DNA from: Clostridium ljungdahlii DSM 13528
GTDB lineage: Bacteria > Bacillota > Clostridia > Clostridiales > Clostridiaceae
Assembly (NCBI RefSeq): GCF_000143685.1
Contig: NC_014328.1
Span: 434,001-498,000 of the forward strand
Reading direction: 5' to 3'
DNA length: 64,000 nucleotides
Below the pieces are notes generated by a model, which worked only from the letters and a program-made list of their open reading frames with translations, was not told where the DNA came from and searched no databases. The position numbers were made by a program, and so were the translations under genes. Of the stretch, positions 7,207-63,187 are shown piece after piece. How positions within the stretch are numbered: position 1 is the stretch's first letter; each line of letters begins with the position of its first letter.

Positions 7207-7452
7207 TCTCTAAACGAAAAATCAACTTATACTCTGAATATTTTTTACAACCTTCAGCTCCTTAAATATTTTGATAAGGCTAAGGAAAAAATTTAAAAAA
7301 ATATTGAGAACTTTTGAAAACTCGTACCTCAAACAATTCAAAAGTTCTAGGTTTTTTAAGAATTTTTTCCTAAGACTTATATACAAAATATTTGAAAGAG
7401 CTTCATTGTTGTAAAAATATGCCTGCGTATAAGTTGATTTTTAAGTTAGAGA
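7207..7452 (+). repeat. Long-hairpin repeat A1 (3'-end element)
   Basis: A 246-bp imperfect palindrome starting 11 nt after the preceding stop codon. Outer arms: AAAAATCAACTTATAC near 7217 and GTATAAGTTGATTTTT near 7428. Inner stem: GAACTTTTGAA / TTCAAAAGTTC around a loop AACTCGTACCTCAAACAA at 7319-7336, followed by a T-run. It shares outer arms, stem and loop with copies A4-A8. Confidence 0.85.
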
Positions 7453-7480
7453 TTTATCCTCATATGATTATTCTAAATAA

Positions 7481-7551
7481 AATTTGAACTTATAAATACA
7501 GATATGCTGACAAAATTGAAAGCACATTTAAAAAATTTTTAAATTTAATGA
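7481..7551 (-). repeat. Remnant of a type B hairpin repeat (B0)
   Basis: The sequence around ATGCTGACAAAATTGAAAGC matches one arm of the type B elements (for example at 62970 and 41295). The loop and the other arm are absent. It lies immediately upstream of the sigma-factor gene and may contribute its promoter sequence. Confidence 0.6.
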
Positions 7552-7602
7552 AGTGTTTTTTGTTTCTGAATCGTTATAGTAAGTGTAAGGATAAAAAGGG
7601 CG

Positions 7603-8115
7603 GTGATGATTATTCAAAGAGACGAATTTGCAAATTATATAAAACAATATGAACGCTTAATCATTACTATATGTTTATCTTTTACAAAAAATTATTTTGA
7701 TGCGGAGGATTTGGCACAACAAACTTTTCTGGCTGCTTATAAAGATTATGAGAAATTTCAAGGAGAAAATTTTAAAGCCTGGCTCACTAAAATTGCTGTA
7801 AACAAGTGTAAAGACTATATGAAAAGTCCTGCACGAAAAATAAATAGTTTAACTGATCAAGAATATGAATGTTTGGAAGACAAGAAAAGCTGCATTGAAG
7901 ATACTGTGATAGAAAATGATACTTCACAGAAAATACATGACTTGTGTAATAAATTAAAGGAGCCTTACAGGACTGTAGCCATAAATTATTTTTGTAAAGA
8001 TATTAAACTTTCTCATATGGCTGAATCTACGGGTCAAAAACTAAAAACTCTGCAGACACGTTTGTATAGATCAAAAAAATTATTAAAAGTTTTATGGAAG
8101 GAGGAGTTTATGTGA
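7603..8115 (+). CDS. ECF-type RNA polymerase sigma factor
   Basis: A 170-residue sigma-70 family protein with only regions 2 and 4, the ECF layout. Region 2 includes FTKNYFDAEDLAQQTFLAAYKD and FKAWLTKIAVNKCKDYMK. Region 4 includes EPYRTVAINYF and the recognition-helix part LKTLQTRLYRSKKLL. It directs RNA polymerase to a small regulon, often for envelope stress. The start is GTG at 7603 or ATG at 7606; AAGGGCGG lies just upstream of both. The stop overlaps the anti-sigma start by 4 bases, a sign of translational coupling and of a standard sigma/anti-sigma pair. Confidence 0.92.
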   Translation: MMIIQRDEFANYIKQYERLIITICLSFTKNYFDAEDLAQQTFLAAYKDYEKFQGENFKAWLTKIAVNKCKDYMKSPARKINSLTDQEYECLEDKKSCIEDTVIENDTSQKIHDLCNKLKEPYRTVAINYFCKDIKLSHMAESTGQKLKTLQTRLYRSKKLLKVLWKEEFM

Positions 8116-8561
8116 GTGAAATACTGTTTGATGAAAATGGACATTTAACTAAAAAATCCATAAAGTGCCTTAAGGACGGTTCCTTAAAAAGTGAGGAAAG
8201 CATTATGATTTTAGATCATGTTTCTGAATGTGAAAAGTGTAGTGCCTACATTGCTGATGGTTTTGATGATACTGAACTTGTAAAAGCTCCTTCTGGATTT
8301 TGTGATGAGGTAGAGAATAAAATAAAAAAGAGAAAGAGCAGTGAATTTATTTTTTACTCGCTTAGAGTTTCAATTGCAGCTTGTATGGCACTCATGATTG
8401 TTTTTTCAAACACATTAAATTTTATAGTAAATACAAAAAAAGTAGTAGGTATTGCACCGCCAAATTTAAGTATTGTAAATTCAATAAATACGAATATGAG
8501 TAATTTTTCTCAGAAGATAATTAACATGGAGGGTTTTAATAATGAGAATGAAAAAAGGTAA
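8112..8561 (+). CDS. Zinc-finger anti-sigma factor (membrane)
   Basis: About 149 residues. Near the N-terminus is LDHVSECEKC, the H-x3-C-x2-C motif of zinc-binding anti-sigma (ZAS) domains, which bind and hold the partner ECF sigma factor. One hydrophobic segment (about residues 82-105) would place the C-terminal part outside the membrane. The GTG at 8112 was chosen because AAGGAGGAG ends six bases upstream and the start overlaps the sigma-factor stop. The gene overlaps the next one by 20 bases. Co-transcription and direct control of the sigma factor are inferred from this arrangement. Confidence 0.82.
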   Translation: MSEILFDENGHLTKKSIKCLKDGSLKSEESIMILDHVSECEKCSAYIADGFDDTELVKAPSGFCDEVENKIKKRKSSEFIFYSLRVSIAACMALMIVFSNTLNFIVNTKKVVGIAPPNLSIVNSINTNMSNFSQKIINMEGFNNENEKR

Positions 8562-9066
8562 GATTTCAACATTTATTTTTTCACTTTTACCTGGCGCAGG
8601 GCATATGTATATGGGATTTATGAAAATGGGAATATCTTTTATGTCAGCTTTCTTTTTTGTAATATTTATAGCTGGTTGGCTTAACATAGGTCCTCTCTTG
8701 TTTGTTTTACCTCTTATTTGGTTTTATTCCTTTTTTGATTGTGTAAACAAACGGTATTCTTCAGATGAAGAATTTTTAAATTTAGAAGATAATTATTTGT
8801 TTTCACTTGATAAGCTATTGAAAGTTGATCAAAAAGTATTTACAAAGCAGAGATTATTTGTAGGTATAGTATGTTTATTCCTTGGGTTGTATTTAATATG
8901 GGATAACGTAATGAATACTTTATGGGGTCATATTCCAAATGAGGTGTATGAGATGCTGTCTGATGTAACAAGAACTGCACCTAGAATAATTATAGGTATT
9001 GCAATAATTGCTGCAGGTATAAAACTAATTAAAGGTAAAAAGAGGGAGATGGATGAAGATGTTTAA
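8542..9066 (+). CDS. Multi-pass membrane protein of the ECF operon
   Basis: A 174-residue protein, not assigned to a named function. It has a short basic N-terminus (MRMKKGKISTF), a Gly-Pro-containing hydrophobic stretch (LLPGAGHMYMGFMKMGISF) like that of small TM2-type membrane proteins, two further strong membrane segments near residues 30-65, and two at the C-terminal half (about 105-125 and 148-165). GGAGG lies 9 nt upstream. It overlaps both neighbours, so it belongs to the sigma/anti-sigma operon and is probably an envelope-stress membrane protein. Confidence 0.7.
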   Translation: MRMKKGKISTFIFSLLPGAGHMYMGFMKMGISFMSAFFFVIFIAGWLNIGPLLFVLPLIWFYSFFDCVNKRYSSDEEFLNLEDNYLFSLDKLLKVDQKVFTKQRLFVGIVCLFLGLYLIWDNVMNTLWGHIPNEVYEMLSDVTRTAPRIIIGIAIIAAGIKLIKGKKREMDEDV

Positions 9067-10745: not shown

Positions 10746-10777
10746 TTTAATTTATATAGAATTTGGGGGAATATAAA

Positions 10778-11428
10778 ATGAAATATAAATATATATTATT
10801 TGATTTGGATGGAACAATTACAGAGTCTAAGGAAGGAATAACTAAATCAGTACAGTATGCATTGAAGAAATTTGGTATTATAGTGGAAAGTCTTGATTTG
10901 CTTGAAAAGTTTATAGGACCACCATTAAAATACTCATTTAGTGAATATTTTGGTTTTGATGAAAATAAGTCTCTCGAGGCAGTGCAGTATTACAGAGAAT
11001 ATTTTGAGAAAAAAGGAATAATGGAAAACAAGGTATATGATCATATTGAAGATTTACTAAAACAATTGAAAGAGCTGAAGTTAAAATTAATTATAGCCAC
11101 ATCAAAGCCTACTAAATTTTCAAATATAATATTAAATAACTTTAATCTGACCCCCTACTTTGATGCCATTGTTGGCAGCAATATGAATGGGACAAGATGT
11201 ACAAAAGGAGAAGTAATAAAGCATGTATTAGAAAAGTATAGGATTAATTCTGATGAAGCTGTAATGATAGGAGACAGAAAATATGACATGATAGGGGCAA
11301 GACAAAACAATATGGATTCTATAGGAGTAACCTATGGATATGGATCTCTAGAAGAATTAAAAAATGAAAATCCAACCTATATTGCAGACAGTGTAATGGA
11401 TATATTGAATAAAGTTACACAGCAATAA
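10778..11428 (+). CDS. HAD-superfamily phosphatase (phosphoglycolate phosphatase-like)
   Basis: A 216-residue HAD hydrolase. Motif I is FDLDGT with nucleophile Asp9 and acid/base Asp11, motif II is the TSKP segment, and the C-terminal GDRKYDMIGA supplies the metal-binding aspartates. A cap domain of subclass IA lies between. The order and length match phosphoglycolate phosphatase / pyrophosphatase PpaX-type enzymes, but substrate specificity in this group is broad. The ATG at 10778 has TTGGGGGA 8 nt upstream. The gene ends 8 bp before repeat A2. Confidence 0.85.
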   Translation: MKYKYILFDLDGTITESKEGITKSVQYALKKFGIIVESLDLLEKFIGPPLKYSFSEYFGFDENKSLEAVQYYREYFEKKGIMENKVYDHIEDLLKQLKELKLKLIIATSKPTKFSNIILNNFNLTPYFDAIVGSNMNGTRCTKGEVIKHVLEKYRINSDEAVMIGDRKYDMIGARQNNMDSIGVTYGYGSLEELKNENPTYIADSVMDILNKVTQQ

Positions 11429-11435
11429 AGAGATT

Positions 11436-11555
11436 ATAAGCAAAAAATCAACTTATACTCCGAATGTTTTCCACTAAGACTTATATACAAAATATTTAAA
11501 TGTGCTTGTTTATTGTAAAATGTTTCTACGTATAAGTTGATTTTTAAGTTAGAAA
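11436..11555 (+). repeat. Long-hairpin repeat A2, internally deleted
   Basis: Both outer ends of a type A element are present (AAAAATCAACTTATAC near 11444, GTATAAGTTGATTTTT near 11530), with part of the right arm (CTAAGACTTATATAC). The left inner arm and the conserved loop are missing, leaving ~120 bp instead of ~246. It starts 8 bp after the HAD gene stop. Confidence 0.8.
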
Positions 11556-11577: not shown

Positions 11578-12285
11578 TCACTCTATTTTATCCTGGAGCT
11601 GCTTTATCTTTTTTATGTCCAGAATAGCCAGAATCTCCTTTAGCTTCTTTATCTCTATTTCATCTAATCCAGGGCAACACGGATCTCCTTTTGGACCTCT
11701 AGGGCCGGGACAGCCAGGGTCTCCATCATGTCCTCTAGGACCAGGACAACCAGGGTCTCCTTTTGGACCTCTATCTCCAGGACAGCCCTTATCACCTTTA
11801 TCGCCTTTAGGGCCAGGACAGCCAGGATTTCCTTTGTCACCTTTAGGCCCAGGACAACCAGGATCGCCCTTATCGCCTTTAGACCCAGGATCGCCCTTAT
11901 CACCTTTATCGCCTTTAGGACCAGGACAGCCAGGATCGCCCTTATCGCCTTTAGACCCAGGATCGCCCTTATCACCTTTATCGCCTTTAGGGCCAGGACA
12001 GCCAGGATCGCCCTTATCGCCTTTAGATCCAGTGCAGCCGGGATCGCCTTTATCGCCTTTAGGACCAGGACAACCGGGATCACCTTTTGGACCTTTCTTA
12101 CCGCAAATTGTTATACATTTATGATAACAATCATTTTTTGATTCATCATGACATTCAGAACCATCCATATTGTGTTTACTTGTCTCATCAAGTTCCATTT
12201 CCTGTGTCTCAATATTTTCACTTTCATTTTTATCAACAAATTCACGGCTGCTTTTTGAGTGATCCGATCTTCTATGCTTTGCCAT
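11578..12285 (-). CDS. Collagen-like Gly-X-Y repeat protein, probably spore surface
   Basis: A 235-residue protein with three parts. A polar N-terminus of ~60 residues contains three cysteines. A collagen-like region (about residues 63-205) of Gly-X-Y triplets is rich in GDKGDPG and PGCPGPKG, with a cysteine in many triplets. The short C-terminus is predicted helical ([21 protein letters not shown]). There is no signal peptide. In Bacilli and Clostridia such proteins (BclA-like) form glycosylated filaments on the exosporium after mother-cell expression. That role is inferred. The coding DNA is GC-richer and repetitive, and open frames on other strands are by-products of the repeat. The frequent cysteines suggest disulfide cross-linking. 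Confidence 0.8.
11690..12100. repeat. Tandem Gly-X-Y coding repeat
   Basis: Short tandem units of 9 and 18 bases coding for Gly-X-Y triplets make a block of near-identical larger units (for example the segment reading [19 protein letters not shown] on the minus strand occurs twice). Slippage at this block could change protein length between strains. Confidence 0.85.
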
Positions 12286-15358: not shown

Positions 15359-15719
15359 AAGAAATTTCCTCCTTTAAAATATATAATTTTTAAGTCTTAA
15401 TAATTAATATATTTACAAAATGTTTTAGTGATACAAAAATTCAAAATTTGATAATAAATATAGTTTTTTATATAAAAAAGAAGACGCTTGGAAAGTAGAT
15501 GGAAATTATGAAAAGATATTTAATTAAGCAACTACTTAGTAGTAACTGGAAAATTATTGGTGTACATTGGAAAGCATATATTAGACAGGATAAATGATAT
15601 AAAAAAGAGTACGACAAAAAAGCCTAAGGTTTTAGATTTGTCAAAAGTTTTTATTGTGACGAAATTTGTTATTACATGCTTTGTATAAGTTAACTTTCAA
15701 ACTAGAAACTCTACAGAAG
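15359..15719. other. Gene-free spacer with a type B repeat remnant
   Basis: The region before the DUF11 paralogue is AT-rich and should carry its promoter. The right part (15610-15713) is repeat B6. A possible 32-codon frame at 15499-15597 has no good ribosome-binding site and is not called. Confidence 0.5.
15610..15713 (-). repeat. Truncated long-hairpin repeat B6
   Basis: It matches the right half of type B elements: CTAAGGTTTTAGATTTG, then CAAAAGTTTTTATTGTG, GAAATTTGTTATTACATGCT and GTATAAGTTAACTTTCAA, as in B1 at 19990-20055. The loop is degraded (only GAGTACGA remains). It abuts the stop codon of the AraC gene on the minus strand, in sense orientation. Confidence 0.75.
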
Positions 15720-16571
15720 TTAGCTCTTGTAGTATTTTTTAGGAGAAAGTCCAAACATCTTTTTAAAGGCTCGCACAAAGTTGGAGTAATCTCCAAAACC
15801 AGATTTTGCACATGCATCTGATGCATTTTCACCGTTGGTTATTAATAAATTAGCCATAATCAATCTTTTTTGAAGTATATAATTGTGAAGGGTATACCCG
15901 GTTTGTTCTTTAAATTTGTGCATTAAATAGTACTTACTTACATAAAATTTAGAGGATAGAGCATCTACAGAAAGGTTTTTGCTTAAGTTTTTATTTATAT
16001 AATCTAGAATATTATCCATGCTCTTATCATATTTTATGTCATTGGACTCTGAAATATTTTTTTGTTTTAAAAACAATCTATTTATATAGACTATAAACTG
16101 TAAAAAATAGGATACTCTCAGCACGCTGTAACCTAATTCTTTGTTTTTAAAGGTATCTTCAATCTGAAAAAGTATTTTTTTTACATCTGCAAGCCATGTA
16201 CTTTCGAGTCTCAATAAATTAAATCTTTGTTTTGATGCCAGTTCAAAGCAGCTTAATAAATTACAGTTATGATTATATCTTACTAAAAAGTCTGAATTTA
16301 ACCACATAATTATACGTTCATAGGTTTCGTTTGAGTCTATTATAGCTTTGTGTATATCATTGCTGTTTACAAGAAGTATATCCCAGGGCTTTAATTTGTA
16401 AGATTTACCTTCTATTAGATAGGTTACATTGCCTGATATAAATATTACTATTTTATTAAAATTATGATAGTGAAATTGGAATTTAATATCTCTTTTATCT
16501 TTTAAGTGAAATATTTCAAAGTCACTTTTCAAATGACCTCTCTTTACTTTTTGAGTTGTATTTTTAATCAT
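15720..16571 (-). CDS. AraC family transcriptional regulator
   Basis: A 283-residue regulator. An N-terminal cupin-like sensor domain (about 15-100, with FHYHNFNKIVIFISGNVTYLIEG) is followed by a C-terminal AraC DNA-binding domain (about 185-283). The latter has two helix-turn-helix units and the signature CAKSGFGDYSNFVRAFKKMFGLSPKKYY. Such proteins usually bind a small ligand and activate a neighbouring promoter. It diverges from dapA and a solute symporter with a 136-bp shared promoter region, so control of those two genes is likely but unproven. GAGGTA precedes the ATG. Confidence 0.9.
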   Translation of the reverse strand: MIKNTTQKVKRGHLKSDFEIFHLKDKRDIKFQFHYHNFNKIVIFISGNVTYLIEGKSYKLKPWDILLVNSNDIHKAIIDSNETYERIIMWLNSDFLVRYNHNCNLLSCFELASKQRFNLLRLESTWLADVKKILFQIEDTFKNKELGYSVLRVSYFLQFIVYINRLFLKQKNISESNDIKYDKSMDNILDYINKNLSKNLSVDALSSKFYVSKYYLMHKFKEQTGYTLHNYILQKRLIMANLLITNGENASDACAKSGFGDYSNFVRAFKKMFGLSPKKYYKS

Positions 16572-19405: not shown

Positions 19406-19420
19406 TTGAAACATCATAGA

Positions 19421-19642
19421 ATTTCCAAACGAAAAATCACTTATACTGCGAATATTTTTAGTAATTAAAAATTAAGAGTTAAGAATTAATAGTTATGGAT
19501 GATTTTCTTCCGTTGGCACTTCAGAAAATCTAAAATAGGGTATCACTTACGCAAAGCCTCAAATTGACCTTCACTATTAATTCTTAATTATCAATTCTTA
19601 ACTTAAAAGTATGCCTGCGTATAAGTTGATTTTTAAGTTAGA
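19421..19642 (+). repeat. Long-hairpin repeat A3 with its core replaced by repeat C2
   Basis: The outer arms of a type A element are intact: AAAAATCACTTATAC at 19432 and GTATGCCTGCGTATAAGTTG near 19609. The central stem and loop are absent, and a C-family hairpin (19463-19608) occupies their place. The element follows the small hypothetical gene in sense orientation. Confidence 0.75.
19463..19608. repeat. Hairpin repeat C2 nested in A3
   Basis: AT-rich arms AGTTAAGAATTAATAGT (near 19477) and ACTATTAATTCTTAATTA (near 19573) are complementary. The interior has GGATGATTTTCTTCCGTTGG and AAATTGACCTTCAC, shared with C3 at 61160-61200. Confidence 0.65.
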
Positions 19643-19805: not shown

Positions 19806-19821
19806 TCTATATAGTGATTTT

Positions 19822-20068
19822 AATTTGAATTTTAACTTATACAAAAAAATGTAATAACAAAATTGAAAGCACCTTTAAAAACTTTTCCATAAGTCTTAGT
19901 GAGGTATTTTAGAAAATCTTAGGAGCTTAGATATTGTTTGAGGTACGAGTTTAGCTAAGGTTCTTAGATTTTCAAAATACCAAACTTTAGACTTGCCAAA
20001 AGTTTTTAGGGTGTTAAAATTTGTCATTACATGCTCTGTATAAGTTAATTTTCAATCTAGAGACTTTA
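19822..20068 (-). repeat. Long-hairpin repeat B1 (3'-end element)
   Basis: An imperfect palindrome of ~245 bp whose minus-strand loop is AAACTCGTACCTCAAACA (centre about 19945). It has ends with AACTTATAC / GTATAAGTT and a stem with TAGGAGCTTAG / CTAAGGTTCTTA. It ends 3 bp from the stop codon of the minus-strand spoVR-like gene and is in sense orientation with it. Confidence 0.85.
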
Positions 20069-28826: not shown

Positions 28827-29876
28827 ATGAAAGCAAAACTTATATTGGAAAATGGAAGTATCTTTGAAGGGGAAGCTTTTGGGTATCTAAAAGATACTAT
28901 AGGTGAAGTAGTATTTAATACTGGGATGACAGGGTACCAGGAGATACTCACAGATCCTTCTTATTATGGACAGATAGTAACTATGACTTATCCCCTTATA
29001 GGAAATTATGGAATTAACTTAGAAGATATGGAATCATCCAGTCCAAAAGTAAAAGGGTTCATTGTAAGAGAAGTATGTAGTTATTCCAGCAATTTTAGGT
29101 CTGAATTAGAACTCTCTGATTATCTTAGAACAAATAAAATTTTGGGACTTTCAGGGATTGATACTAGAGCACTTACAAAAATGCTTAGAACAAGTGGTAC
29201 TATGAAGGGAATTATAACTATAGAGAACTTGGACTTTGCAGCTGTAAAAGATAAAATTAAATCTTTTTCCAATAAAAATGCAGTATCTGAGGTAAGTACA
29301 AAGGGAAAATATGCTATAGGTGAAGGCAAAAGAAATGTTGCTATTATGGATTTCGGAATTAAAAAAACTATGGTAAAAGCATTTGTAGATAGAGGATGTA
29401 AAGTAACTGTATTTCCTTCGAATACTAAAGCAGAAGAGGTACTTCAAATTGATCCAGATTTGATATTTTTATCAAATGGTCCGGGGGATCCAGATGATCT
29501 TACCTGTGAAATTGAAAATATAAAAAAGCTTATAGGCAAAAAACCTATTATAGGAATATGTCTTGGACATCAGCTTTTGGCATTAGCCCTAGGGGGAAGC
29601 ACAGCTAAACTCAAATTTGGTCACAGAGGGTGCAACCATCCTGTAAAAGATCTTGTAAGTGGTAAAGTGCATATAACTTCTCAAAATCACGGCTATTATG
29701 TCAATAGACTGCCTGAAGATATGGAAATAACTCATGTAAGTTTAAACGATGGAACTATAGAAGGAATGAAACATAAAAGTCTTCCTATATTCTCAATACA
29801 ATTTCATCCGGAAGCATGTCCGGGACCGGAAGACAATAATTATATATTTGATGAGTTTATGAAATACGCACTTTAA
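28827..29876 (+). CDS. carA: Carbamoyl-phosphate synthase small subunit
   Basis: Glutaminase subunit that supplies ammonia to CarB for carbamoyl phosphate, the precursor of pyrimidines and arginine. The 349 residues include the N-terminal small-subunit domain (LENGSIFEGEAFG, NTGMTGYQEILTDPSY) and a class I glutamine amidotransferase domain. The latter has nucleophile Cys in GICLGHQLLALALGG and His/Glu in QFHPEACPGP. GGAGG precedes the ATG. The PyrR-type attenuator upstream indicates control by pyrimidines rather than arginine. carB follows after 44 bp. Confidence 0.97.
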   Translation: MKAKLILENGSIFEGEAFGYLKDTIGEVVFNTGMTGYQEILTDPSYYGQIVTMTYPLIGNYGINLEDMESSSPKVKGFIVREVCSYSSNFRSELELSDYLRTNKILGLSGIDTRALTKMLRTSGTMKGIITIENLDFAAVKDKIKSFSNKNAVSEVSTKGKYAIGEGKRNVAIMDFGIKKTMVKAFVDRGCKVTVFPSNTKAEEVLQIDPDLIFLSNGPGDPDDLTCEIENIKKLIGKKPIIGICLGHQLLALALGGSTAKLKFGHRGCNHPVKDLVSGKVHITSQNHGYYVNRLPEDMEITHVSLNDGTIEGMKHKSLPIFSIQFHPEACPGPEDNNYIFDEFMKYAL

Positions 29877-29920
29877 AATAGTTGAGAATTGTACATTGAA
29901 TAGAAGGGAGATAGGTTTTT

Positions 29921-33127: not shown

Positions 33128-33130
33128 ATC

Positions 33131-33232: not shown

Positions 33233-33259
33233 AAATACAATAATGAAAGGTTTGAAATT

Positions 33260-34432: not shown

Positions 34433-34441
34433 AAAACCTAT

Positions 34442-34690: not shown

Positions 34691-34704
34691 AATCTGGATA
34701 GGTT

Positions 34705-40992: not shown

Positions 40993-40996
40993 AGGT

Positions 40997-41243: not shown

Positions 41244-41260
41244 ATCCACATTGAGGTATT

Positions 41261-41514: not shown

Positions 41515-41589
41515 AGTTGATTCTTTTTATGATAATGTTATAATTAAGGTGAAAATTAATGTTGTAAAATAAAATTTAACAAATAATAG

Positions 41590-41766
41590 TATAGGTTTAA
41601 TTACATTTAATTAAAAGGGAATCAGGTGGAAATCCTGAACTATCTTGTAGCTGTATTAGGTGAATTTAAGTAAGACAAGCCACTTGTAAATAGGGAAGGC
41701 ATACTTAAATGATGAAGCTTAAGTCAGAAGACCTGCCTATATAGTAGGCCATTAACTCTACAAGTG
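41590..41766 (+). ncRNA. Cobalamin (AdoCbl) riboswitch upstream of hemA
   Basis: The hallmarks of the B12 element are in order: AAAAGGGAATCAGGTGGAAA and TCCTGAAC, TGTAGCTGTA, a variable arm, GCCACTTGT then AGGGAAGGC, and the B12-box-like AAGTCAGAAGACCTGCC (about 41721-41737). CACTTGTA (41681-41688) can also pair with TACAAGTG (41759-41766), offering an alternative fold. A terminator follows at 41820. High B12 should stop transcription of hemA-hemL, which make the tetrapyrrole precursor. Confidence 0.92.
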
Positions 41767-43137: not shown

Positions 43138-44412
43138 ATGAGAAATGATGATATATTTAATGAATCCAAATTATACATGCCAGGAGGAGTAAATAGTCCT
43201 GTTAGAGCATTTAAAGATGTGCCTTTGAATCCACCTGTTATAAAAAGGGGAAAAGGAGCTTATATTTATGATGAGGATGGTAATAAATACATAGATTTTG
43301 TATGCTCATGGGGGCCTATGATTTTAGGACACTGTGATGATGATGTGGTAAAGGCTATAAAGGATACAAGTGAAAATGCTATATCTTTTGGTGCTACTAC
43401 AGAGCTTGAATTGGAGCTTGCAAAATATGTATGTACCACTTTAGATAATGTAGAAATGCTTAGAATGGTAAATTCAGGAACAGAAGCAACTATGAGTGCG
43501 GTAAAGCTTGCTAGAGGGTGTACTGGAAGAAATAAAATAATAAAATTTGCAGGTTGCTATCATGGTCATTTTGATGATTTTTTAGTAGAAGCAGGTTCTG
43601 GAGTCATGACAGAAGGAATTCCAGGAAGCGCTGGGGTTCCTGAGGACAGTGTGAAAAATACTTTAATAGCTAAATATAATGATCTTTCTAATGTGGAGAA
43701 AATTTTTGAGAAGCATGGTAAAGACATTGCAGCGATTATAGTAGAACCAGTAGCAGGAAATATGGGCGTAATTCCTGGGGATGCCAATTTCTTAAAAGGG
43801 CTTCGAAGTATTTGTGATAAAAATGGAAGCTTGCTTATTTTTGATGAAGTAATGAGTGGATTTAGGGTAGCCTATAAAGGAGCCCAGAGCATTTATGGAA
43901 TAAAACCGGATATAACTACTTTTGCAAAAATTATAGGTGGAGGTCTTCCTTGTGGTGCTTATGGTGGAAGAAAAGAAATAATGGAAAAACTTTCACCAAT
44001 GGGACCTGTCTATCAGGCAGGAACAATGTCCGGAAATCCCCTTGTAATGGCTGCAGGAATTGCAACTTTAAAGAAGCTGCACGACAATCCTGATTACTAT
44101 GAACATCTTGAAAAATTAGGTGCAAAATTGGAACAGGGTATAAAGGACATAGCAAAAAAGAAGGGCATAAATGTTGTAGTAAATAGGTGCGGAGCAATGT
44201 TTGCTATATTCTTTACTAAAGATTCAGAAGTTAGAAATTATGAAGATGCTAAAAAATGTGATACTGCTCTTTTTGCAAAGTATTTTCAGCATATGTTGAG
44301 CAAAGGCATTTATATTGCACCTTCTCAATTTGAAGCTATATTTTTAAATGTAAAGCATACTGAAGAAGATATTGATAAATTCTTAGAGGCATTCAGCACA
44401 TTTGAAGCCTAG
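43138..44412 (+). CDS. hemL: Glutamate-1-semialdehyde 2,1-aminomutase
   Basis: Converts glutamate-1-semialdehyde to 5-aminolevulinate. The 424-residue PLP enzyme is a class III aminotransferase with [11 protein letters not shown] near the N-terminus, FDEVMSGFR (235-243) and the PLP lysine Lys264 in [21 protein letters not shown] follows. GGAG precedes the ATG. It forms an operon with hemA. The other common members of clostridial hem clusters (hemC, hemD, hemB) are not here, so this two-gene unit makes only 5-aminolevulinate. Repeat A6 begins 4 bp after the stop. Confidence 0.96.
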
Positions 44413-44415
44413 ATA

Positions 44416-44661
44416 GGGTTTCTAAGCAAAAAATCAACTTATACTATGGATATTTTCTACAACCTTCAGCTCCTTAAATATTTTGATAAGTCTAACCAAA
44501 AAATTTTGAAAACCTAAGATCTTTTGAAAACTCGTACCTCAGACAATTCAAAAGGTCTAAGTTTTTCTGGAATTTTTTACTAAGACTTATATGCAAAATA
44601 TTTAAATGTGTTTGCTTATTGTAAAATATTTCTACACATAAGTTTATTTTTAAGTGAGAAA
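44416..44661 (+). repeat. Long-hairpin repeat A6 (3'-end element)
   Basis: A type A palindrome with loop AACTCGTACCTCAGACAA near 44530. The inner stem GATCTTTTGAA / TTCAAAAGGTC shows a paired change relative to GAACTTTTGAA / TTCAAAAGTTC in other copies. Outer arms AAAAATCAACTTATAC / ACATAAGTTTATTTTT. It starts 4 bp after the hemL stop. Confidence 0.88.
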
Positions 44662-44704: not shown

Positions 44705-45508
44705 CTAAATTAACTTTGCTATAAGGACTATTAGATGTGAAGCAGGCACTAATATTAATTGTGCTAATATACTTCCAATAATCAATCCACCAACAATAAA
44801 AATTATGCAGCGGTTAAATTCCAATTCTGTACGTTCTCCTCTTATCACATCATCTGTCATCATAGATAAATATGGATCAATAAATATAAACATGAATATT
44901 GTTGAAATACTGTTGATTACAGATGCTAAAGTGCTGCAAGTAGTTCTTAAACTAGGACTTAAGCATCCAGCATATAATGATGATAAAATACTTATACTTG
45001 ATATAGAAAATGCAATAATATTTAGTAAAATTACCTTTTTAGGAGTTTTTCTAAAGTTCTTTAATTCAGATAAATTTTCTCTTTTAGGAATTGAAATACT
45101 ATTTTTAAACTGCTCAATTCCTGATTTTGAAAATGCATGAATCATCAATCTAGGTAAAGACCTGTAAACACTAAATGATATAACCAATTTGTTAAACACT
45201 TTTATAAAAGTTGGCATTAAAATTGCACCGGCTATTGTGGCTAAAGTAATAGAAAAAACTATCCATCTAAAAATATACAGTAAGTTACTAGAATGACCTG
45301 TATTTATTCCATTTTCAATAGTTTTTGCTAATAATGGAGCTTGAATAGTATTAGCTGTTCTTTGTATAAGTAAAAAAACATTAAATACAGCAAAAGATAC
45401 TGCAATTCTACCAGTTCTTATTCCCACAATTCTAGTAGAATATGCTAATGTTCCTATAACATAAATAATAAAAGTTAGCATAAAAACTAAATATACCTGT
45501 ATTGTCAT
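44705..45508 (-). CDS. amj: Amj family lipid II flippase (alternative to MurJ)
   Basis: A 267-residue membrane protein with about six transmembrane segments. Size and conserved segments (YVIGTLAYSTRIVGIRTGRIAVSFAVFNVFLLIQRTANTIQAPLLAKTIE) fit the Amj (DUF2837/YdaH) family, which can replace MurJ in moving lipid II across the membrane for peptidoglycan synthesis. The segment AYSTRIVGIRTGRIA carries the Arg residues typical of the family. ATG 45508 has AAGGTGGT 8 nt upstream; GTG 45520 is inside that site and less likely. It stands alone, convergent with hemL. Confidence 0.82.
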   Translation of the reverse strand: MTIQVYLVFMLTFIIYVIGTLAYSTRIVGIRTGRIAVSFAVFNVFLLIQRTANTIQAPLLAKTIENGINTGHSSNLLYIFRWIVFSITLATIAGAILMPTFIKVFNKLVISFSVYRSLPRLMIHAFSKSGIEQFKNSISIPKRENLSELKNFRKTPKKVILLNIIAFSISSISILSSLYAGCLSPSLRTTCSTLASVINSISTIFMFIFIDPYLSMMTDDVIRGERTELEFNRCIIFIVGGLIIGSILAQLILVPASHLIVLIAKLI

Positions 45509-45595
45509 TTTTCTTACCACCTTATGGCTTCATTAGTTTATATTTATTTCATAAATTTGTATATTCAAATTATATCACAATTTTAATTTTGATAG

Positions 45596-45850
45596 GAACT
45601 TATAAGATGAAGATTTTAGATCATACAAGGAAACATGCTGACAAAATTGAAATCACACTTAAAAATTTTTTTTATAAGTCTTAGTGAGACATTTTAGAAA
45701 ATCTTAAAAACTTATATATGTCTGAGGTACGAGTTTATATAAGTTTCTTTAGATTTTCAAAATGCTGAGCTTTAGACTTATAAAAAGTTTTTAGTGTGAT
45801 GAAATTTGTCAGCATGTTTTTATATGACTTGAAACTTCTACTTAGAACTT
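45596..45850 (-). repeat. Long-hairpin repeat B4 (3'-end element)
   Basis: The minus-strand loop is AAACTCGTACCTCAGACA (centre near 45728). Its stem AAACTTATATA / TATATAAGTTT differs from B5 (AAGCTTATATA / TATATAAGCTT) by a compensated pair. It ends 3 bp from the galU stop codon in sense orientation. The outer left end is less well kept than in other copies. Confidence 0.85.
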
Positions 45851-45852
45851 TC

Positions 45853-46722
45853 CTAAAGTGCAGTTTTAATTGTAGATAAATATTCCAAAAGCTCACCTTT
45901 TAAGACATTATTTTTTAGCGCATAGTGTATATTTGCTTGAAGGAAAGCAAATTTATCTCCTGCATTATATCTTTGGCCTTCAAAATAATATCCATATATT
46001 GCTTCAGTTTTTACAAGTTCTTTTAGGGCATCTGTTAGCTGTATTTCTCCTTTTTTATCTGATTTGTTTTTTTCAAGTATTTCAAATATTTTTGGAGTTA
46101 TAATATATCTCCCTAGAATTGCGATATTTGAAGGAGCTTCTTGGACTGTTGGCTTTTCTACCATATCTTTGACTTTAAAAGTTCCCTTTTCAACTTCAAT
46201 GCCACTTATAATACCGTATTTTGATACAGCTTCTTCCTTTACAGGCTGGACACCTAAAATAGAAGTATTGTAGTTATCGTAACAATCTATAAGCTGCTTG
46301 AGACAGGGTATTTTGCTGTCAACTATGTCATCGCCTAACATAACTGCAAAAGGTTCATCTTCTACAAAATTTTTAGCAAGACTTATAGCATGACCTAATC
46401 CTTTAGGTTCTTTTTGTCTCGTATAATATATATCTACCATGTTGGATATGTTTTGAACTAACTTTAATAAAGTGGTTTTATTATTTTTTTTAAGTTGATC
46501 TTCAAGCTCTACGGATTTGTCAAAATGATCTTCAATAGATCTCTTATTTTTGCCCGTTATTATTAATATTTCTTCAATTCCAGAAGATACAGCTTCTTCT
46601 ACTATATATTGAATTGTCGGCTTATCTACTATAGGCAGCATTTCTTTAGGTTGAGCTTTTGTAGCAGGAAGAAATCTTGTACCTAGTCCTGCAGCAGGAA
46701 TTATTGCTTTTTTAATTTTCAT
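45853..46722 (-). CDS. galU: UTP-glucose-1-phosphate uridylyltransferase
   Basis: Makes UDP-glucose from UTP and glucose-1-phosphate, feeding cell-surface glycan synthesis. The 289 residues have the nucleotidyltransferase signature IPAAGLGTRFLPATKAQPKEMLPIVDKP (about 8-35), the uridine-binding region GLGHAI, VMLGDDIVD with the metal-binding aspartates, and VEKP. Length and motif order are normal. GAAAGGA precedes the ATG. It overlaps the preceding membrane glycosyltransferase gene by 11 bases, so the two are translationally linked. Confidence 0.95.
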   Translation of the reverse strand: MKIKKAIIPAAGLGTRFLPATKAQPKEMLPIVDKPTIQYIVEEAVSSGIEEILIITGKNKRSIEDHFDKSVELEDQLKKNNKTTLLKLVQNISNMVDIYYTRQKEPKGLGHAISLAKNFVEDEPFAVMLGDDIVDSKIPCLKQLIDCYDNYNTSILGVQPVKEEAVSKYGIISGIEVEKGTFKVKDMVEKPTVQEAPSNIAILGRYIITPKIFEILEKNKSDKKGEIQLTDALKELVKTEAIYGYYFEGQRYNAGDKFAFLQANIHYALKNNVLKGELLEYLSTIKTAL

Positions 46723-49481: not shown

Positions 49482-50378
49482 ATGCCTAATAATTTAGTAT
49501 TTAATGGCACAGCTAATGATTTAAAAACCCAAATGTATGCTTATAATAGTGGTACAAATCAAGCTGAGGCTTTAACTATATCAGGTGGTAATTTAGCAGT
49601 AGCAGGAACGGTAACAGTAGGAAATACAGTAGCCGTAACAGTAGGAACAGTAACAGTAGCAGGAAGCGTAACTGTAGGGAATACAGTAACAGTTGAAGGA
49701 ACCGTAAGCGTAGGAAATACAGTAGCTGTAACAGTAGGAACAGTAACAGTAGCAGGAAGTGTAACTGTAGGGAATACGGTAACAGTTGAAGGAACCGTAA
49801 GCGTAGGAAATACAGTAGCTGTAACAGTAGGAACAGTAACAGTAGCAGGAAGCGTAACTGTAGGGAACACAGTAACAGTTGAAGGAACCGTAAGCGTAGG
49901 AAATACAGTAGCTGTAACAGTAGGAACAGTAACAGTAGCAGGAAGTGTAACTGTAGGGAATACAGTAACAGTTGAAGGAACCGTAAGTGTAGGAAATACA
50001 GTAGCTGTAACAGTAGGAACAGTAACAGTAGCAGGTACTGTTAGTTCAGTAACCACTGGAGTTGGATTTACTGCAACCAGCACTGCTATAACCACAGGTA
50101 CCGGTATAGGATCAGTGCTGCAGCAGGATACTTCTCAGCAATCAATGTACTCTTATTATATTAAAAATAATGATACTACAAATGCAATTACAGTAGCGCT
50201 GCAAGTTTCCCCAACTAGTACAGCATCTTATTTTGTAAATGATATTAATCCGATAAGTCTTTCTGCAAATAGTGCTACGGTTTTAACTACCAAGTATTAT
50301 ATGAATTATACAAGGCTTTACTATGATACGGGAACTAATACCGCTGATTTTGAGGCTTATTTTAATGGAAAAATTTAA
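49482..50378 (+). CDS. Val/Thr/Gly repeat protein with C-terminal DUF6385 domain
   Basis: A 298-residue protein with no export signal. The N-terminal ~35 residues (NNLVFNGTANDLKTQMYAYN) lead into a low-complexity region (about 40-195). That region is made of hexapeptide-like units such as VTVGNT, VTVEGT and VSVGNT, arranged in four near-identical 31-residue blocks. The pattern of alternating Val and small polar residues suggests a beta-solenoid. The C-terminal ~105 residues (QQSMYSYYIKNNDTTNAITVALQVSPT to EAYFNGKI) match the DUF6385 type. Thr and Ser are very frequent, making it a good glycosylation substrate for the transferase encoded next. AGAGGAGATGGG precedes the ATG. Confidence 0.7.
   Translation: MPNNLVFNGTANDLKTQMYAYNSGTNQAEALTISGGNLAVAGTVTVGNTVAVTVGTVTVAGSVTVGNTVTVEGTVSVGNTVAVTVGTVTVAGSVTVGNTVTVEGTVSVGNTVAVTVGTVTVAGSVTVGNTVTVEGTVSVGNTVAVTVGTVTVAGSVTVGNTVTVEGTVSVGNTVAVTVGTVTVAGTVSSVTTGVGFTATSTAITTGTGIGSVLQQDTSQQSMYSYYIKNNDTTNAITVALQVSPTSTASYFVNDINPISLSANSATVLTTKYYMNYTRLYYDTGTNTADFEAYFNGKI
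49668..50039 (+). repeat. Four 93-bp tandem repeats in coding sequence
   Basis: Units start at 49668, 49761, 49854 and 49947, each beginning GTAACTGTAGGGAA. Units differ at only a few, mostly synonymous bases (AGC/AGT, ACA/ACG). A partial unit precedes the block. In-frame gain or loss of units would change the protein by 31 residues. Confidence 0.95.
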
Positions 50379-55865: not shown

Positions 55866-55970
55866 TGAACTTATCAAGAGTGATTGAGGGAACGGGCCCT
55901 ATGAAATCCAGCAACCAGTACAGTGTATAATGGTGCTAAATCCTGCAGCGAGAGCTGAAAGATGAGAGAA
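55866..55970 (+). ncRNA. SAM-I (S-box) riboswitch
   Basis: CTTATCAAGAGTGATTGAGG begins the aptamer, followed by GAACGGGCCCTATGAAATCC, AGCAACC, the GTACAGTG...TGGTGCTAAATCC arm, CTGCAGCGAGAGCTGAAAG and GATGAG. These are the P1-P4 hallmarks of the S-box. A terminator follows at 55986. High S-adenosylmethionine should switch off metN-metI. Confidence 0.95.
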
Positions 55971-59602: not shown

Positions 59603-60739
59603 ATGAAAGATAATTTGTTTATGTGTATATATTTATTTTTTATTTTTGTGATAATACTCGTAATCAATATGTTGACTCCTAAATTTACAAGAAAAGAAAT
59701 TGTATTTGGAGTGAGAATCCCTGAAGATAAGATCGATTCAGATGAAATTAAGCATATAAAAGCACAATTTGTAAAGAATAATTTAATTATAGGAATTCCC
59801 TTTATTATTTTATTTAGTGTGCTAAATTATAGTTTTTTAAACGTAGGTATGATTTTGTTTACTACTTTTGCCTTTGTATTTATAAGCTTTTTAATATATC
59901 TTATATCAAACAGAGCTATGAAAAATCTTAAGTCACAAAAGTTGTGGCTTCAAGGTAAGAAACAGGTTGTAACTGTAGACACTAGTTTTTCTAGAAGCAA
60001 GAGCAATATGCTTGTGTCAGCTTGGTTTTTCTTGATACCTGCAGCTATCATTATAGTAAATATAATTTTAGGATATATGAATTATAACTCTTTACCTTAT
60101 AAAGTCCCTACACACTGGGATTTTTCCGGTAATGTAACGGGATATCAATTTAAATCCAGGTTTCTAATTTGGGAGATGCCAATTGCTCAGATTTTTAGTA
60201 CTTTTATATTTTTTATAGTCTATAAGGGAATTGGATGGTCAAAACAGCAGATTAGTTCTATAGATCCAGAAGCATCCGTAAAGAAAAATAGTATATTTAG
60301 AAGAAGCTGGTCCATATATATGGTTGTCTTTGCTGTAGTGACCAATCTTTTACTAACTGTTGCTACTGTTCAGATGTTTAGAGTATTTAATGTGAGTAAT
60401 ACTTTTTCAATCATCATAATATTGGCTTTTGTATTAATTACAATTTTAGGAAGTATAGCCTTATCCTTAAAGATTGGACAGGGTGGAAGCAATATAAAAT
60501 TTAAAAGTGATGATGAAGAAAAAGGAAAGTCCGGTTTTGGCGATAAAGATGATGATAAGTGCTGGGTACTAGGAAATAGTATATATTATAACAAGAATGA
60601 TCCATCCTTATTTGTGGAAAAAAGATTTGGCATAGGCTGGACCATAAATGCAGGCAGACCACTTGGAATGGCAATATATATAGGAAGTATTGTGATTATA
60701 ATTGTAACTATAATTTTTGCTGTATTTAGTGGAAAATAA
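59603..60739 (+). CDS. DUF1648/DUF5808 membrane protein
   Basis: A 378-residue protein with about eight predicted membrane segments. The DUF1648 motif YNSLPYKVPTHWDFSGNVTGY (about 157-177) lies between membrane helices. Further on, a cytosolic segment with charged KSDDEEKGKSGFGDKDDDK leads to WVLGNSIYYNKNDPSLFVEKRFGIGWTINAGRP, the DUF5808 pattern. SdpI immunity proteins also contain DUF1648, but the function of this subtype is unknown. GGTGGG precedes the ATG. It is co-transcribed with the GntR gene. Repeat A7 begins 19 bp after the stop. Confidence 0.85.
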   Translation: MKDNLFMCIYLFFIFVIILVINMLTPKFTRKEIVFGVRIPEDKIDSDEIKHIKAQFVKNNLIIGIPFIILFSVLNYSFLNVGMILFTTFAFVFISFLIYLISNRAMKNLKSQKLWLQGKKQVVTVDTSFSRSKSNMLVSAWFFLIPAAIIIVNIILGYMNYNSLPYKVPTHWDFSGNVTGYQFKSRFLIWEMPIAQIFSTFIFFIVYKGIGWSKQQISSIDPEASVKKNSIFRRSWSIYMVVFAVVTNLLLTVATVQMFRVFNVSNTFSIIIILAFVLITILGSIALSLKIGQGGSNIKFKSDDEEKGKSGFGDKDDDKCWVLGNSIYYNKNDPSLFVEKRFGIGWTINAGRPLGMAIYIGSIVIIIVTIIFAVFSGK

Positions 60740-60757
60740 TAATTAGAATATCTATAG

Positions 60758-61004
60758 GAATTCTAAGTAAAAAACAACTTATACTTCGGATATTTTTACA
60801 ACCACAAGCTCGATTAAATATTTTGATAAGCCTAAGTAAAAAACTTAAAAAAATACTGAGAACTTTTGAAAACTCGTACCTCAGACAATTCAAAAGTTCT
60901 AGATTTTTTAAAAATTTTTTCCAAGGCTTATAGACAAAACATTTAAATGAGCTTGATTATTATAAAAATATGACTACGCATAAGTTGTTTTTTAAGTTAG
61001 AAAA
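60758..61004 (+). repeat. Long-hairpin repeat A7 (3'-end element)
   Basis: A palindrome with loop AACTCGTACCTCAGACAA near 60875 and inner stem GAACTTTTGAA / TTCAAAAGTTC followed by TAGATTTTTTA. The outer arms AAAAAACAACTTATAC / GCATAAGTTGTTTTTT have lost one T in both, again a paired change relative to other copies. Confidence 0.88.
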
Positions 61005-61285: not shown

Positions 61286-62470
61286 ATGATATCCAATAAA
61301 ATGAAAGAACACGTATCTAAAAGTTCTATAATAAGGGCTATGTTTGAAGAAGGAAAGAGACTAGCTTCAATTTATGGGGAAGAAAATGTATTTGACTTTA
61401 GTTTGGGAAATCCAAATGTAGAACCGCCAGAGGCTATAAAAAAGGCAGTAAATGAAATCATATCCGAGGAATCTCCCAATATGGTTCATGGTTACATGAG
61501 CAATTCGGGTTATGAGGATGTAAGGGCTAAAATTGCAGAAAACATAAATAAAAAATACAATTTGAAGCTTACTGAAAATAACTTGGTAATGACTTGTGGT
61601 GCAGCAGGAGGACTTAATATAATTTTCAAAACCCTTTTAAATCCAAGAGATGAAGTTATTACATTTTCACCTTTCTTTGGGGAATATGAGAATTATGTAG
61701 ATAACTTTGGTGGAAAGCTTGTAATAGTACCTTCAGATACAGAAACTTTTGAGCCAGATTTAAATGCATTGGAGCAATCTATAAATGCTAAAACAAAGGC
61801 AATAATCATAAATTCACCAAACAATCCTACAGGAATAATTTATTCAGAAAAGCTTATTAAAGATTTATCACAGCTTTTAGACAAGAAACAGGAACAACTT
61901 GGTACTAGTATATACTTAATTTCAGATGAACCCTACAGGGAAATAGCATATGATGGAGTAAAGGTTCCATACATATTGAATTATTATAGAAATTCTATTG
62001 TAGGCTATTCTTATAGCAAATCCCTTTCGCTCCCGGGTGAGAGAATAGGATATGTAGTTTGCAGTAGTGATATGGATGATTTTAAAGATGTAATGCCTGC
62101 CCTTAATGTGGCAAATAGAATTTTAGGTTTTGTAAATGCACCATCTTTATTTCAAAGGGTAATTGCAAAATGTTTGGATTCAAGCGTAGATATGAATATA
62201 TATAAGAAGAACAGAGACTTACTATACAATCATCTTGTTAAAATAGGATTTTCTTGTGTTAAACCTGAAGGTGCTTTTTATTTATTTCCTAAGTCATTAA
62301 TTGCTGATGACGTTGAATTTGCAAAGGAAGCAAAGAAATTTAACCTGCTAATAGTTCCAGGTTCATCCTTTAAATGCCCTGGTCACTTTAGACTTTCCTA
62401 TTGCATTTCTTACGATAAAATAGAAAAATCTTTAGACAGTTTTGATAAGCTTGCAAAGAAATACCTCTAG
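61286..62470 (+). CDS. Pyridoxal-phosphate aminotransferase, class I/II
   Basis: A 394-residue fold-type I aminotransferase. The N-terminal FDFSLGNPNVEPPEA binds substrate, INSPNNPTG (about 175-183) and ISDEPYR (212-218) contact PLP, and Lys245 in YSYSKSLSLPGERIGY forms the Schiff base. An Arg in GHFRLSYCIS near the C-terminus would bind the substrate carboxylate. It resembles aspartate or aromatic/alanine-type aminotransferases; the exact substrate is not clear. GGGGG precedes the ATG. Repeat A8 begins 4 bp after the stop, and an out-of-phase open frame across that junction is not a gene. Confidence 0.92.
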   Translation: MISNKMKEHVSKSSIIRAMFEEGKRLASIYGEENVFDFSLGNPNVEPPEAIKKAVNEIISEESPNMVHGYMSNSGYEDVRAKIAENINKKYNLKLTENNLVMTCGAAGGLNIIFKTLLNPRDEVITFSPFFGEYENYVDNFGGKLVIVPSDTETFEPDLNALEQSINAKTKAIIINSPNNPTGIIYSEKLIKDLSQLLDKKQEQLGTSIYLISDEPYREIAYDGVKVPYILNYYRNSIVGYSYSKSLSLPGERIGYVVCSSDMDDFKDVMPALNVANRILGFVNAPSLFQRVIAKCLDSSVDMNIYKKNRDLLYNHLVKIGFSCVKPEGAFYLFPKSLIADDVEFAKEAKKFNLLIVPGSSFKCPGHFRLSYCISYDKIEKSLDSFDKLAKKYL

Positions 62471-62473
62471 AAT

Positions 62474-62720
62474 AGAGTATCTAACTAAAAAATCAACTTA
62501 TACTCTGGATATTTTTTACAAACTTCAGCTCGTTAAATATTTTGATAAGTCTAAGAAAAAAATTCTAAAAAAGCTAAGAACTTTTGAAAACTCGTACCTC
62601 AGACAATTCAAAAGTTCTAAGTTTTTATGAATTTTTTTCTAAGACTTATATGCAAAATATTTAAAAGAGCTTCGTTATTGTAAAAATATGCCTACGTATA
62701 AGTTGATTTTTAAGTTATAA
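62474..62720 (+). repeat. Long-hairpin repeat A8 (3'-end element)
   Basis: A nearly complete palindrome of 247 bp. TATCTAACTAAAAAATCAAC at the left pairs with GTTGATTTTTAAGTTATA at the right. The middle arms AAATATTTTGATAAGTCTAA / AAGACTTATATGCAAAATAT pair with a small bulge. The loop AACTCGTACCTCAGACAA lies near 62590-62607. It starts 4 bp after the aminotransferase stop. Confidence 0.9.
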
Positions 62721-62744
62721 ATCCATATATAGATGGATAACTCT

Positions 62745-62885
62745 ATAATTAAGTTTATCCAAATTGCCAGTTTCATTTAAATGATAAAGTTATAAATTCA
62801 ACTAAGATTTATAATTAGTAATTTTGAGTAATTATAGTTTAGCTTTAAACTTTACGATCCATAAATCGTTAACTCTAGAACGTAG
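62745..62885 (+). repeat. Dispersed repeat E2
   Basis: Contains CCAAATTGCCAGTTTCATTT, TTATAAATTCAACTAAGATT and TATAATTAGTAATTTT, matching E1 at 19660-19805 read on the opposite strand with about 10-20 percent differences. It lies between A8 and B5. No open frame is conserved between the copies. Confidence 0.65.
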
Positions 62886-62938
62886 CCCTTCTAAATTGCT
62901 AATTGGGTTTTAAATTCTACCATTTATATTGAGATATC

Positions 62939-63187
62939 CTAGTTTGAAATTTGAACTTATACCAGAAAATAATGCTGACAAAATTGAAGCACACTTAAAA
63001 ACTTTTTTTATAAGTCTTAGTGAGGTATTTTAGAAAATCTTAGAAGCTTATATATGTCTGAGGTACGAGTTTATATAAGCTTCTTTAGATTTTCAAAATA
63101 CCGAACTTTAGACCTATAAAAAGTTTTTAGTATGATGAAATTTGTCAGCATATGAACTGGTATAAGTGGAATTTCAATCTAGAAATT
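62939..63187 (-). repeat. Long-hairpin repeat B5 (3'-end element)
   Basis: The reference type B copy. Ends: CTAGTTTGAAATTTGAACTT (62939) and AATTTCAATCTAG (63170-63182). Middle arms: ATGCTGACAAAATTGAAG / AAATTTGTCAGCAT. Inner stem: AGAAGCTTATATA / TATATAAGCTTCT. Minus-strand loop: AAACTCGTACCTCAGACA near 63066. It touches the stop codon of the minus-strand SleB-type gene. Confidence 0.9.

Follow-up and report, generated by a model that had tools for sequence, protein, structure and literature searches.

Paired long hairpins behind stop codons in Clostridium ljungdahlii DSM 13528 are probably IS630-type miniature inverted-repeat transposable elements

A 64,000-bp stretch of the genome of the gas fermenter Clostridium ljungdahlii DSM 13528 (hereafter the window; bases 434001–498000 of a one-contig genome of 4,630,065 bp) carries long hairpins of two types, A and B, most of which begin just behind a stop codon and lie in sense to the gene that they follow. 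Here, we report that this arrangement is real, genome-wide and far beyond chance. Judged by their ends, the hairpins are very probably non-autonomous miniature inverted-repeat transposable elements (MITEs) of the IS630 type, built as a unit of two hairpins that face inward; they would be a known kind of element in a variant unusual for its size, its layout and its tie to stop codons. A role for the hairpins at transcript 3' ends is plausible. An earlier note on the window had proposed either a structured 3'-untranslated region (3'-UTR) or terminator RNA family, or a mobile hairpin that targets gene ends. The second kind is supported, since the ends match IS630-family insertion sequences (ISs) and copies are many and dispersed; the targeting itself is putative.

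Results

Hairpins follow stop codons in sense across the genome

A profile search recovered all 14 copies in the window that had been described earlier (A1–A8 and B1–B6, Table 1). With gaps measured from the start of the profile, every A copy (8/8) follows a plus-strand stop by 0–15 bp, and all B copies except B3 (5/6) have a minus-strand stop at a distance of −3 to 6 bp, much as the earlier note had it. The two types had also been said to show the same loop; its core, CTCGTACCTC, is present in 11 of the 14 copies (6 A and 5 B) but is missing from A2, A3 and B6. Genome-wide, the loop AACTCGTACCTCARACA occurs 78 times at ≤2 mismatches (backward control, 0), and the profile finds 77 long hairpins covering more than 150 of its positions (46 A and 31 B). 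A hairpin is approximately 250 bp long, a two-hairpin unit approximately 520 bp. Hairpins are non-coding: none of 76 loops falls within a called gene, genes having been called genome-wide by a codon-usage script, not a standard annotator.

Fifty-nine of the 77 hairpins begin between −30 and +25 bp from a same-strand (sense) stop, and only two are antisense to a nearby stop. For an intergenic point and a strand picked at random, the probability of meeting the sense rule is 0.046, which would give 3.6 of 77 (binomial P = 9e-63). Orientation bias towards neighboring genes, which the earlier note had proposed as the check on its claim, is therefore strong. When contexts were classed with a window of −35 to +30 bp, 60/77 hairpins were sense-at-stop, none was antisense only and 17 were at no stop; eight of the latter come from complete pairs near co-directional genes (the distal hairpins, plus one pair 47 bp from a stop). 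Solo hairpins were sense-at-stop in 28 of 33 cases (co-directional 19/21, convergent 9/11, divergent 0/1). The distance from loop to stop is 112–139 nt in 54/76 and ≤160 nt in 58/76, with two loops at the mirror position.

At ≤1 mismatch the loop is present in 4 of 59 genomes, DSM 13528 included: 74 times in DSM 13528, 87 in C. ragsdalei, 91 in C. ljungdahlii ERI-2 and 8 in a member of another genus (G019). A longer motif of loop plus arm retrieved 107 stretches from a collection of species genomes, which may leave out the record of DSM 13528 itself, and all came from C. ljungdahlii ERI-2, C. ragsdalei or C. thailandense. The DNA of ERI-2 and C. ragsdalei P11 differs from that of DSM 13528 by approximately 2–11%, mostly 4–6%, over long alignments; both are non-pathogenic acetogens. 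C. thailandense has many copies at other sites, with arms 83–94% alike (the 29 best after the query). A sense loop lies ≤160 nt from a stop in 33/51 loci of ERI-2, 34/48 of C. ragsdalei, 11/22 of C. thailandense and 3/3 of G019; these loci were fetched by loop, so that shared sites are over-represented among them. Among 30 C. thailandense copies chosen by arm, with genes taken as the longest open reading frames (ORFs), 15 start −30 to +39 bp from a sense stop and one at 63 bp, 11 have a divergent gene upstream and three have none. Internally deleted copies, some only 46–63 bp long with both ends kept, likewise lie behind stops.

Hairpins A and B form an inward-facing unit

Close pairs combine one A and one B with loops facing inward in 15 of 16 cases (A> <B in eight, B> <A in seven); the remaining pair is a tandem A< B<, and AA or BB pairs do not occur. 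The unit thus reads hairpin A, spacer, hairpin B, each hairpin bounded by TATAGRGTTTCTAA...AACTTATAC. Since pairing is inward and many solos keep a remnant of the missing partner, the A/B pair looks like the original unit.

With two inward-facing hairpins, the gene-adjacent end is sense whichever way the unit lies. This layout explains part of the one-sided orientation that the earlier note had thought beyond random insertion; for solo copies, either selection or targeted insertion is still required to account for the way they face. A purely selfish account of the same MITEs would take the geometry further: insertion would be untargeted, copies would survive only where they are harmless, behind genes, and the sense rule would come from the inward pair. 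Such an account does not readily explain why starts cluster within approximately 25 bp of a stop when most free intergenic sequence lies elsewhere, why the solos include none that is antisense only and so many at a stop, given that neutral partner loss should leave distal ones too, or why terminators are depleted beyond the elements (see below). We give it a substantial minority chance of being right, and as it shares the identity of the elements with the explanation that we prefer, the odds of the two overlap.

The hairpin ends resemble those of IS630-family insertion sequences

We assign the hairpins to IS630-type MITEs because their ends are shared with IS630 elements and because of the class of the transposase. 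Searching for the DDE_3 domain, we found that C. thailandense has an IS630-family transposase next to one of its hairpin copies (L226). An uninterrupted 364-residue IS630-family transposase is found in C. ragsdalei (L227; PF13358, 81.6 bits; NCBIfam NF033545, 169.3 bits against a cut-off of 100), within an IS that starts approximately 22 bp behind the stop of an apparent UDP-sugar dehydrogenase gene (identified by eye). With boundaries and consensus set by eye, the left end of the C. ragsdalei IS equals the A inner end at 26/36 positions and its right end the B outer end at 25/36 (0/2000 shuffles each). Similarly, the ends of the C. thailandense IS agree with the C. thailandense hairpin end at 24/36 and 25/34 positions (0/2000 shuffles each), and match the B outer end more weakly (4 and 0 of 2000 shuffles reach the score).

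Relatives of the transposase at E ≤ 1e-20 occur in 14 of 194 family genomes; in viral contigs, none was confirmed. Thirty IS loci from the family genomes, which overlap and stand for fewer copies, were examined with a script that saw TATAG-type ends only and used no shuffles: 20 have TATAG-type inverted ends scoring 23–29/34, mostly approximately 1.2 kb apart, and the other 10 score 15–21. We also noted, at five loci (L238, L244, L251, L263 and L264), a further matching end approximately 100 bp beyond one end of the IS630 copy; a short hairpin may travel beside IS630 copies.

DSM 13528 itself seems to have lost its transposase. The one match in its genome at E ≤ 1e-20 is a 67-residue fragment, 84% identical and with an internal stop, which lies at 794323–794511 and adjoins A/B remnants; a search of the genome for the DDE_3 domain found none. 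As for an autonomous element with A/B ends, the pattern TATAGRGTTTCTAA is present at at least 102 places at ≤1 mismatch (backward control, 16), and the 20 regions inspected, whose genes were not classified singly, held remnants or lone end matches.

Several observations weigh against an IS630 origin. Against the A outer end, the ends of the C. thailandense IS score no higher than chance would give (323 and 429 of 2000 shuffles reach them), and the same is true of the left end of the C. ragsdalei IS against the C. thailandense hairpin (1417/2000 shuffles); on these comparisons the end matches appear bound to subtype. IS copies are not all behind stop codons, as judged by eye. The termini TATAG..CTATA of many copies fit duplication of a TA target, but no intact pre-insertion site was found in the clade among four of 12 prepared candidates and one more, so that both TA duplication and a recent jump are conjectural. 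The four comprised one deletion that included flank, two sites with remnants and one with a single flank aligned. A candidate for species-specific insertion, the one site that reverse comparison gave as element-free in DSM 13528, turned out to be an internal deletion with both arms kept, between divergent genes.

Stems are maintained and the loop is one of several conserved blocks

Two single copies were folded. Both A4 (−78.9 kcal/mol, z −9.9) and B3 (−92.1 kcal/mol, z −12.6) form one long hairpin, and 0/200 shuffles were as good in either case. Of 52 consensus pairs predicted on 15 copies selected from A, B, C. thailandense and G019, 37 show pair-keeping changes on both sides, a raw count with neither a slid nor a shuffled control. 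The stem-loop is maintained as such at the RNA or the DNA level, although palindrome correction could yield the same double changes. In the loop, 15/17 columns are conserved at ≥95% in A (n = 43) and likewise 15/17 in B (n = 30). We rejected a special conservation of the loop, as other blocks within A or B match or exceed it. Its invariance across species partly reflects how copies were ascertained, as the loop itself served to find those of C. thailandense and G019; among the arm-chosen C. thailandense copies, 20 have the loop at ≤1 mismatch and 10 lack it.

Alternative loops were seen in C. thailandense: L283 and L292 carry similar unrelated sequence, and L285, L289 and L290 share CTCGCT.TGCTCAAA. 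Three further C. thailandense copies (L052, L057 and L124) lie between inverted words like GGGGCTGTCGCAA / TTGCGACAGCCCC, as if inside another palindromic repeat. The ACCUC of the loop resembles an anti-Shine-Dalgarno sequence, and the hairpins may be likened to those of integron attC sites.

Covarying stems, near-invariant loop columns and sense orientation would also suit a structured 3'-UTR or terminator RNA family that evolved vertically and is not a transposon. The ends held in common with IS630 elements speak against such a family, as do the many C. thailandense copies at different sites and the finding that units at sites shared between species are reversed or replaced (see below). Nor does any Rfam 15 family reach its cut-off over the copies in the window, where only two riboswitches match. 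We consider an RNA family of this kind highly unlikely. The earlier note did not recognize the element as any named family; its shared ends now allow it to be named as an IS630-type MITE.

Ordinary terminators are scarce where a hairpin sits

The earlier note saw no ordinary terminator between stop and element, and we found terminator-like sites there in 0/41 cases. Beyond the element such sites follow in 3/41, compared to 29/95 element-free gene ends with the next gene ≥120 bp away (Fisher P = 0.0036; shuffled sequences gave 0.8/41 and 1/95). Ordinary terminators are therefore scarce where a hairpin sits. This much favors the terminator proposed in the earlier note. Within the elements themselves, by contrast, a standard detector (≥7 pairs, ≥2 G-C pairs and a loop of 3–9, followed by a T-run) fired in sense in only 3/46 A and 1/31 B, and in antisense in 6/46 A and 20/31 B. 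In A, a T-run follows an inner hairpin whose loop is 18 nt long, a class that the detector does not count.

A 3'-end role must also be set against the following. By its sequence, the element is not an ordinary intrinsic terminator, and B is more terminator-like in antisense than in sense; the 95 control ends may include some internal to operons. Among C. thailandense copies with enough sequence, 2/13 precede an intact terminator, a share resembling that of DSM 13528, so that no decay over time is demonstrated. By eye, two sites in this species (L268 and L280) have the hairpin between a stop and the apparent ribosome-binding site of the next gene, and the earlier claim that genes inside operons lack the element thus holds only loosely. 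Relatives that lack the element at two such sites were also compared by eye: in G011 and G003 (L306 and L308) the gene is followed by a terminator hairpin, and in others (L296 and L297) the genes are closely spaced and have none.

Taken together, whether the hairpin took over the 3'-end role from an ordinary terminator in DSM 13528 is close to an even call, which we would place slightly on the negative side. A fuller version, in which the elements are a transposon-derived 3'-UTR module, is on the doubtful side: the transposase, or immediate selection, would place the unit between stop and terminator, and the host would adopt the sense hairpin, with its strongly conserved 17-nt loop, as a common device at the 3' ends of dozens of genes, where it would stand in for native terminators and be exchanged among genes by recombination.

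Units are reversed and replaced between species

Paired comparisons with the two close relatives showed the A/B unit reversed in 14 of 26 cases (ERI-2 8/15, C. ragsdalei 6/11; hand count). The count covers sites at which both genomes keep parts of both hairpins as a pair and excludes tandem, single-hairpin and A6/B4 sites. The spacer is reversed together with the unit at 468 kb (114/127 identical when inverted) and at 1970 kb (43/44), the mark of inversion in situ. The same holds at 2931 kb, less cleanly (62/71) and with a B hairpin that ranks only 12th; at 3869 kb the spacer is inverted weakly (17/18), and at the other sites it either is too short or resembles its counterpart in neither direction.

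Replacement was evident too. At reversed sites, a hairpin finds its best match in its orthologue in 5/23 comparisons, versus 16/18 at unreversed sites. Identity to the orthologue drops to 82–86% (rank 20–37) at 474, 609 (B) and 3785 kb, with another copy 92–98% identical in five of these six, and we interpret these sites as replacements. A non-consensus base kept at the left end of the 474-kb unit favors recombination within the ends over fresh insertion. At single-hairpin sites (769, 3209, 3623 and 4043 kb), species differ in whether the hairpin is A or B, while its orientation towards the gene is unchanged; the strict orientation rule is broken at 2955 kb (C. ragsdalei A<, DSM 13528 A>) and at 300 kb (DSM 13528 A<, both relatives B<). 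Many switch points fall in the 11-bp TAGAGTTTCTA common to both outer ends. By eye, they vary: one at 2931 kb lies approximately 30 bp further in, and the right side at 3720 kb has no such end.

Programmed inversion was at first our favored main story. In that account the unit would be a recombinase-driven inverton, flipping as a phase-variable switch that exchanges which hairpin follows which gene; the frequency of reversal, the inverted spacers and the many switches within TAGAGTTTCTA all fit. We rejected it as the main story because switch points differed between sites, contrary to one fixed pair of recombination sites, and because most reversed hairpins were not the best match of their orthologue, which indicates much replacement. 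Furthermore, either state leaves a sense hairpin at both genes, and no recombinase was linked to the units, though no search aimed at recombinases was made. An inverton is hence unlikely, albeit a little less so than the RNA family.

Copies and neighboring features in the window

Coordinates of the copies and remnants are collected in Table 1. Inside A3 (19466–19607) lies an AT-rich palindrome (..TTAAGAATTAATAG..) that differs from the usual one and may represent a second repeat family. Words resembling it are found beside elements at about 820 kb and 2145 kb in the genome.

The gene between A6 and B4 (44705–45520) belongs to the Amj family (PF10997, 315.9 bits) and is no recombinase. In ERI-2 (L055) the matching A-to-B stretch measures 447 bp versus 1445 bp in DSM 13528, too short for an Amj-family gene. 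Elsewhere in the genome, a gene at 2631606–2633210, which lies between an A and a B copy, was judged by eye. The two riboswitches in the window are both on the plus strand: one for cobalamin (98.3 bits; 41576–41754), which B3 precedes by approximately 60 bp, and one for SAM (77.6 bits; 55868–55968). Tandem repeats overlap long open frames at 11669–12100 (36 bp, at least eight overlapping copies) and 49501–50058 (93 bp, at least five overlapping copies). A plasmid search with 28827–34432 gave no match.

Table 1. Hairpin copies and remnants in the window, in window coordinates.
Feature	Position	Strand	Remarks
A1 hairpin	7202–7452	+	Profile match; 5 bp after stop of ORF 6027–7196
B-partner remnant of A1	7479–7543	-	Profile match, 31.7 bits; B remnant there too in C. 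ragsdalei (L121) and ERI-2 (L087)
A2	11429–11555	+	Internally deleted A copy, middle gone; immediately after stop of ORF 10763–11428
B6	15629–15713	-	Partial, profile positions 2–86, about one third of a copy; 6 bp from minus-strand stop of ORF 15720–16571
A3	19417–19642	+	Profile match; A ends enclosing a different nested palindrome
B1	19821–20068	-	Partner of A3; 2 bp from minus-strand stop
A4	34441–34691	+	Profile match and fold; 8 bp after stop of ORF 33260–34432
B-type arm remnant	34714–34768	-	Within A4–B2 spacer; spacer inverted in ERI-2 (L040)
B2	34822–35071	-	Partner of A4; 4 bp from minus-strand stop
A5	40996–41244	+	3 bp after stop of ORF 38785–40992
B3	41260–41513	-	Partner of A5; fold; next gene on plus strand
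A6	44414–44661	+	1 bp after stop of class-III aminotransferase gene 43138–44412
B4	45603–45851	-	1 bp from minus-strand stop of ORF 45853–46722; separated from A6 by Amj-family gene
A7	60755–61003	+	15 bp after stop of ORF 59603–60739
A8	62473–62721	+	2 bp after stop of ORF 61286–62470
B5	62937–63190	-	Partner of A8; overlaps minus-strand stop of ORF 63188–63949

Discussion

In the explanation that we prefer, an IS630-type transposase would mobilize A/B units in trans, with insertion at TA and preferential entry or survival behind a stop codon. In DSM 13528 the hairpin would then take over the 3'-end role, stopping or protecting the transcript in place of an ordinary terminator. Copies decay by internal deletion. 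With its transposase apparently gone, DSM 13528 would owe any recent changes to recombination and to deletion of hairpins.

The analysis puts a name to a repeat found at the ends of dozens of genes in an acetogen of industrial use, and to its likely transposase family. In the A/B units, nature has also recorded how palindromes are inverted and their copies replaced between species approximately 5% apart. A literature search, which covered its sources in part, found no description of these repeats in C. ljungdahlii or C. autoethanogenum; the portion seen of the C. autoethanogenum genome paper treats repeat content only in general terms (PMC4022347).

Among the closest known systems, each taken here from partial accounts, is RUP of Streptococcus pneumoniae, for which IS630-Spn1 is the proposed mover (PMC2229807, PMC3049150). 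Like the elements described here, RUP (approximately 110 copies) is non-coding, AT-rich and hairpin-forming, with terminal repeats shared with IS630 and TA at its termini (PMC2229807, PMC3049150). Unlike RUP, the present elements measure approximately 250 bp per hairpin, form A> <B pairs and mostly start ≤25 bp from a stop in sense.

Correia elements (CREE/NEMIS) of Neisseria share the TATAG ends (PMC2649163); they have 24-bp terminal repeats with TA at the termini (PMC2229807) and are described as bound by RNase III. Their ends read TATAG[CT]GGATTAA.., compared to TATAGRGTTTCTAA..AACTTATAC here, and we found no stop-codon rule in the portions seen. We rejected a Correia identity on a comparison of consensus sequences: Correia ends are TATAG[CT]GGATTAACAAAAATCAGGAC or variants (PMC2649163), whereas our elements begin TAGAGTTTCTAAAC, and TATAG alone is shared.

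SPRITE of S. pneumoniae likewise lies near gene 3' ends, is enriched between convergent genes and has been suggested to be a co-opted terminator; it has an 18-bp duplex with a U-rich tract, AAAA/TTTT ends and, in the account seen, no pneumococcal IS partner (PMC3049150). The ends of our elements differ from AAAA/TTTT and the stems of the two folded copies are far longer than 18 bp, and SPRITE was rejected as an identity. ERIC/RU-1 of enterobacteria is again a MITE, with an orientation-dependent effect on upstream RNA, but its terminal repeats are 7 bp and we found no two-hairpin unit in the part seen (PMC2229807). Clop-1 of C. perfringens (93 bp) and Clot-1 of C. tetani (74 bp) are clostridial stem-loop repeats too (PMC2267715), set beside ours by description, not sequence. 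As far as those partial accounts go, the stop-codon rule appears tighter here than for the pneumococcal repeats, and for this reason the A/B hairpins make a good case for asking whether a transposon targets, or is selected into, the 3'-UTR and becomes the end of the transcript.

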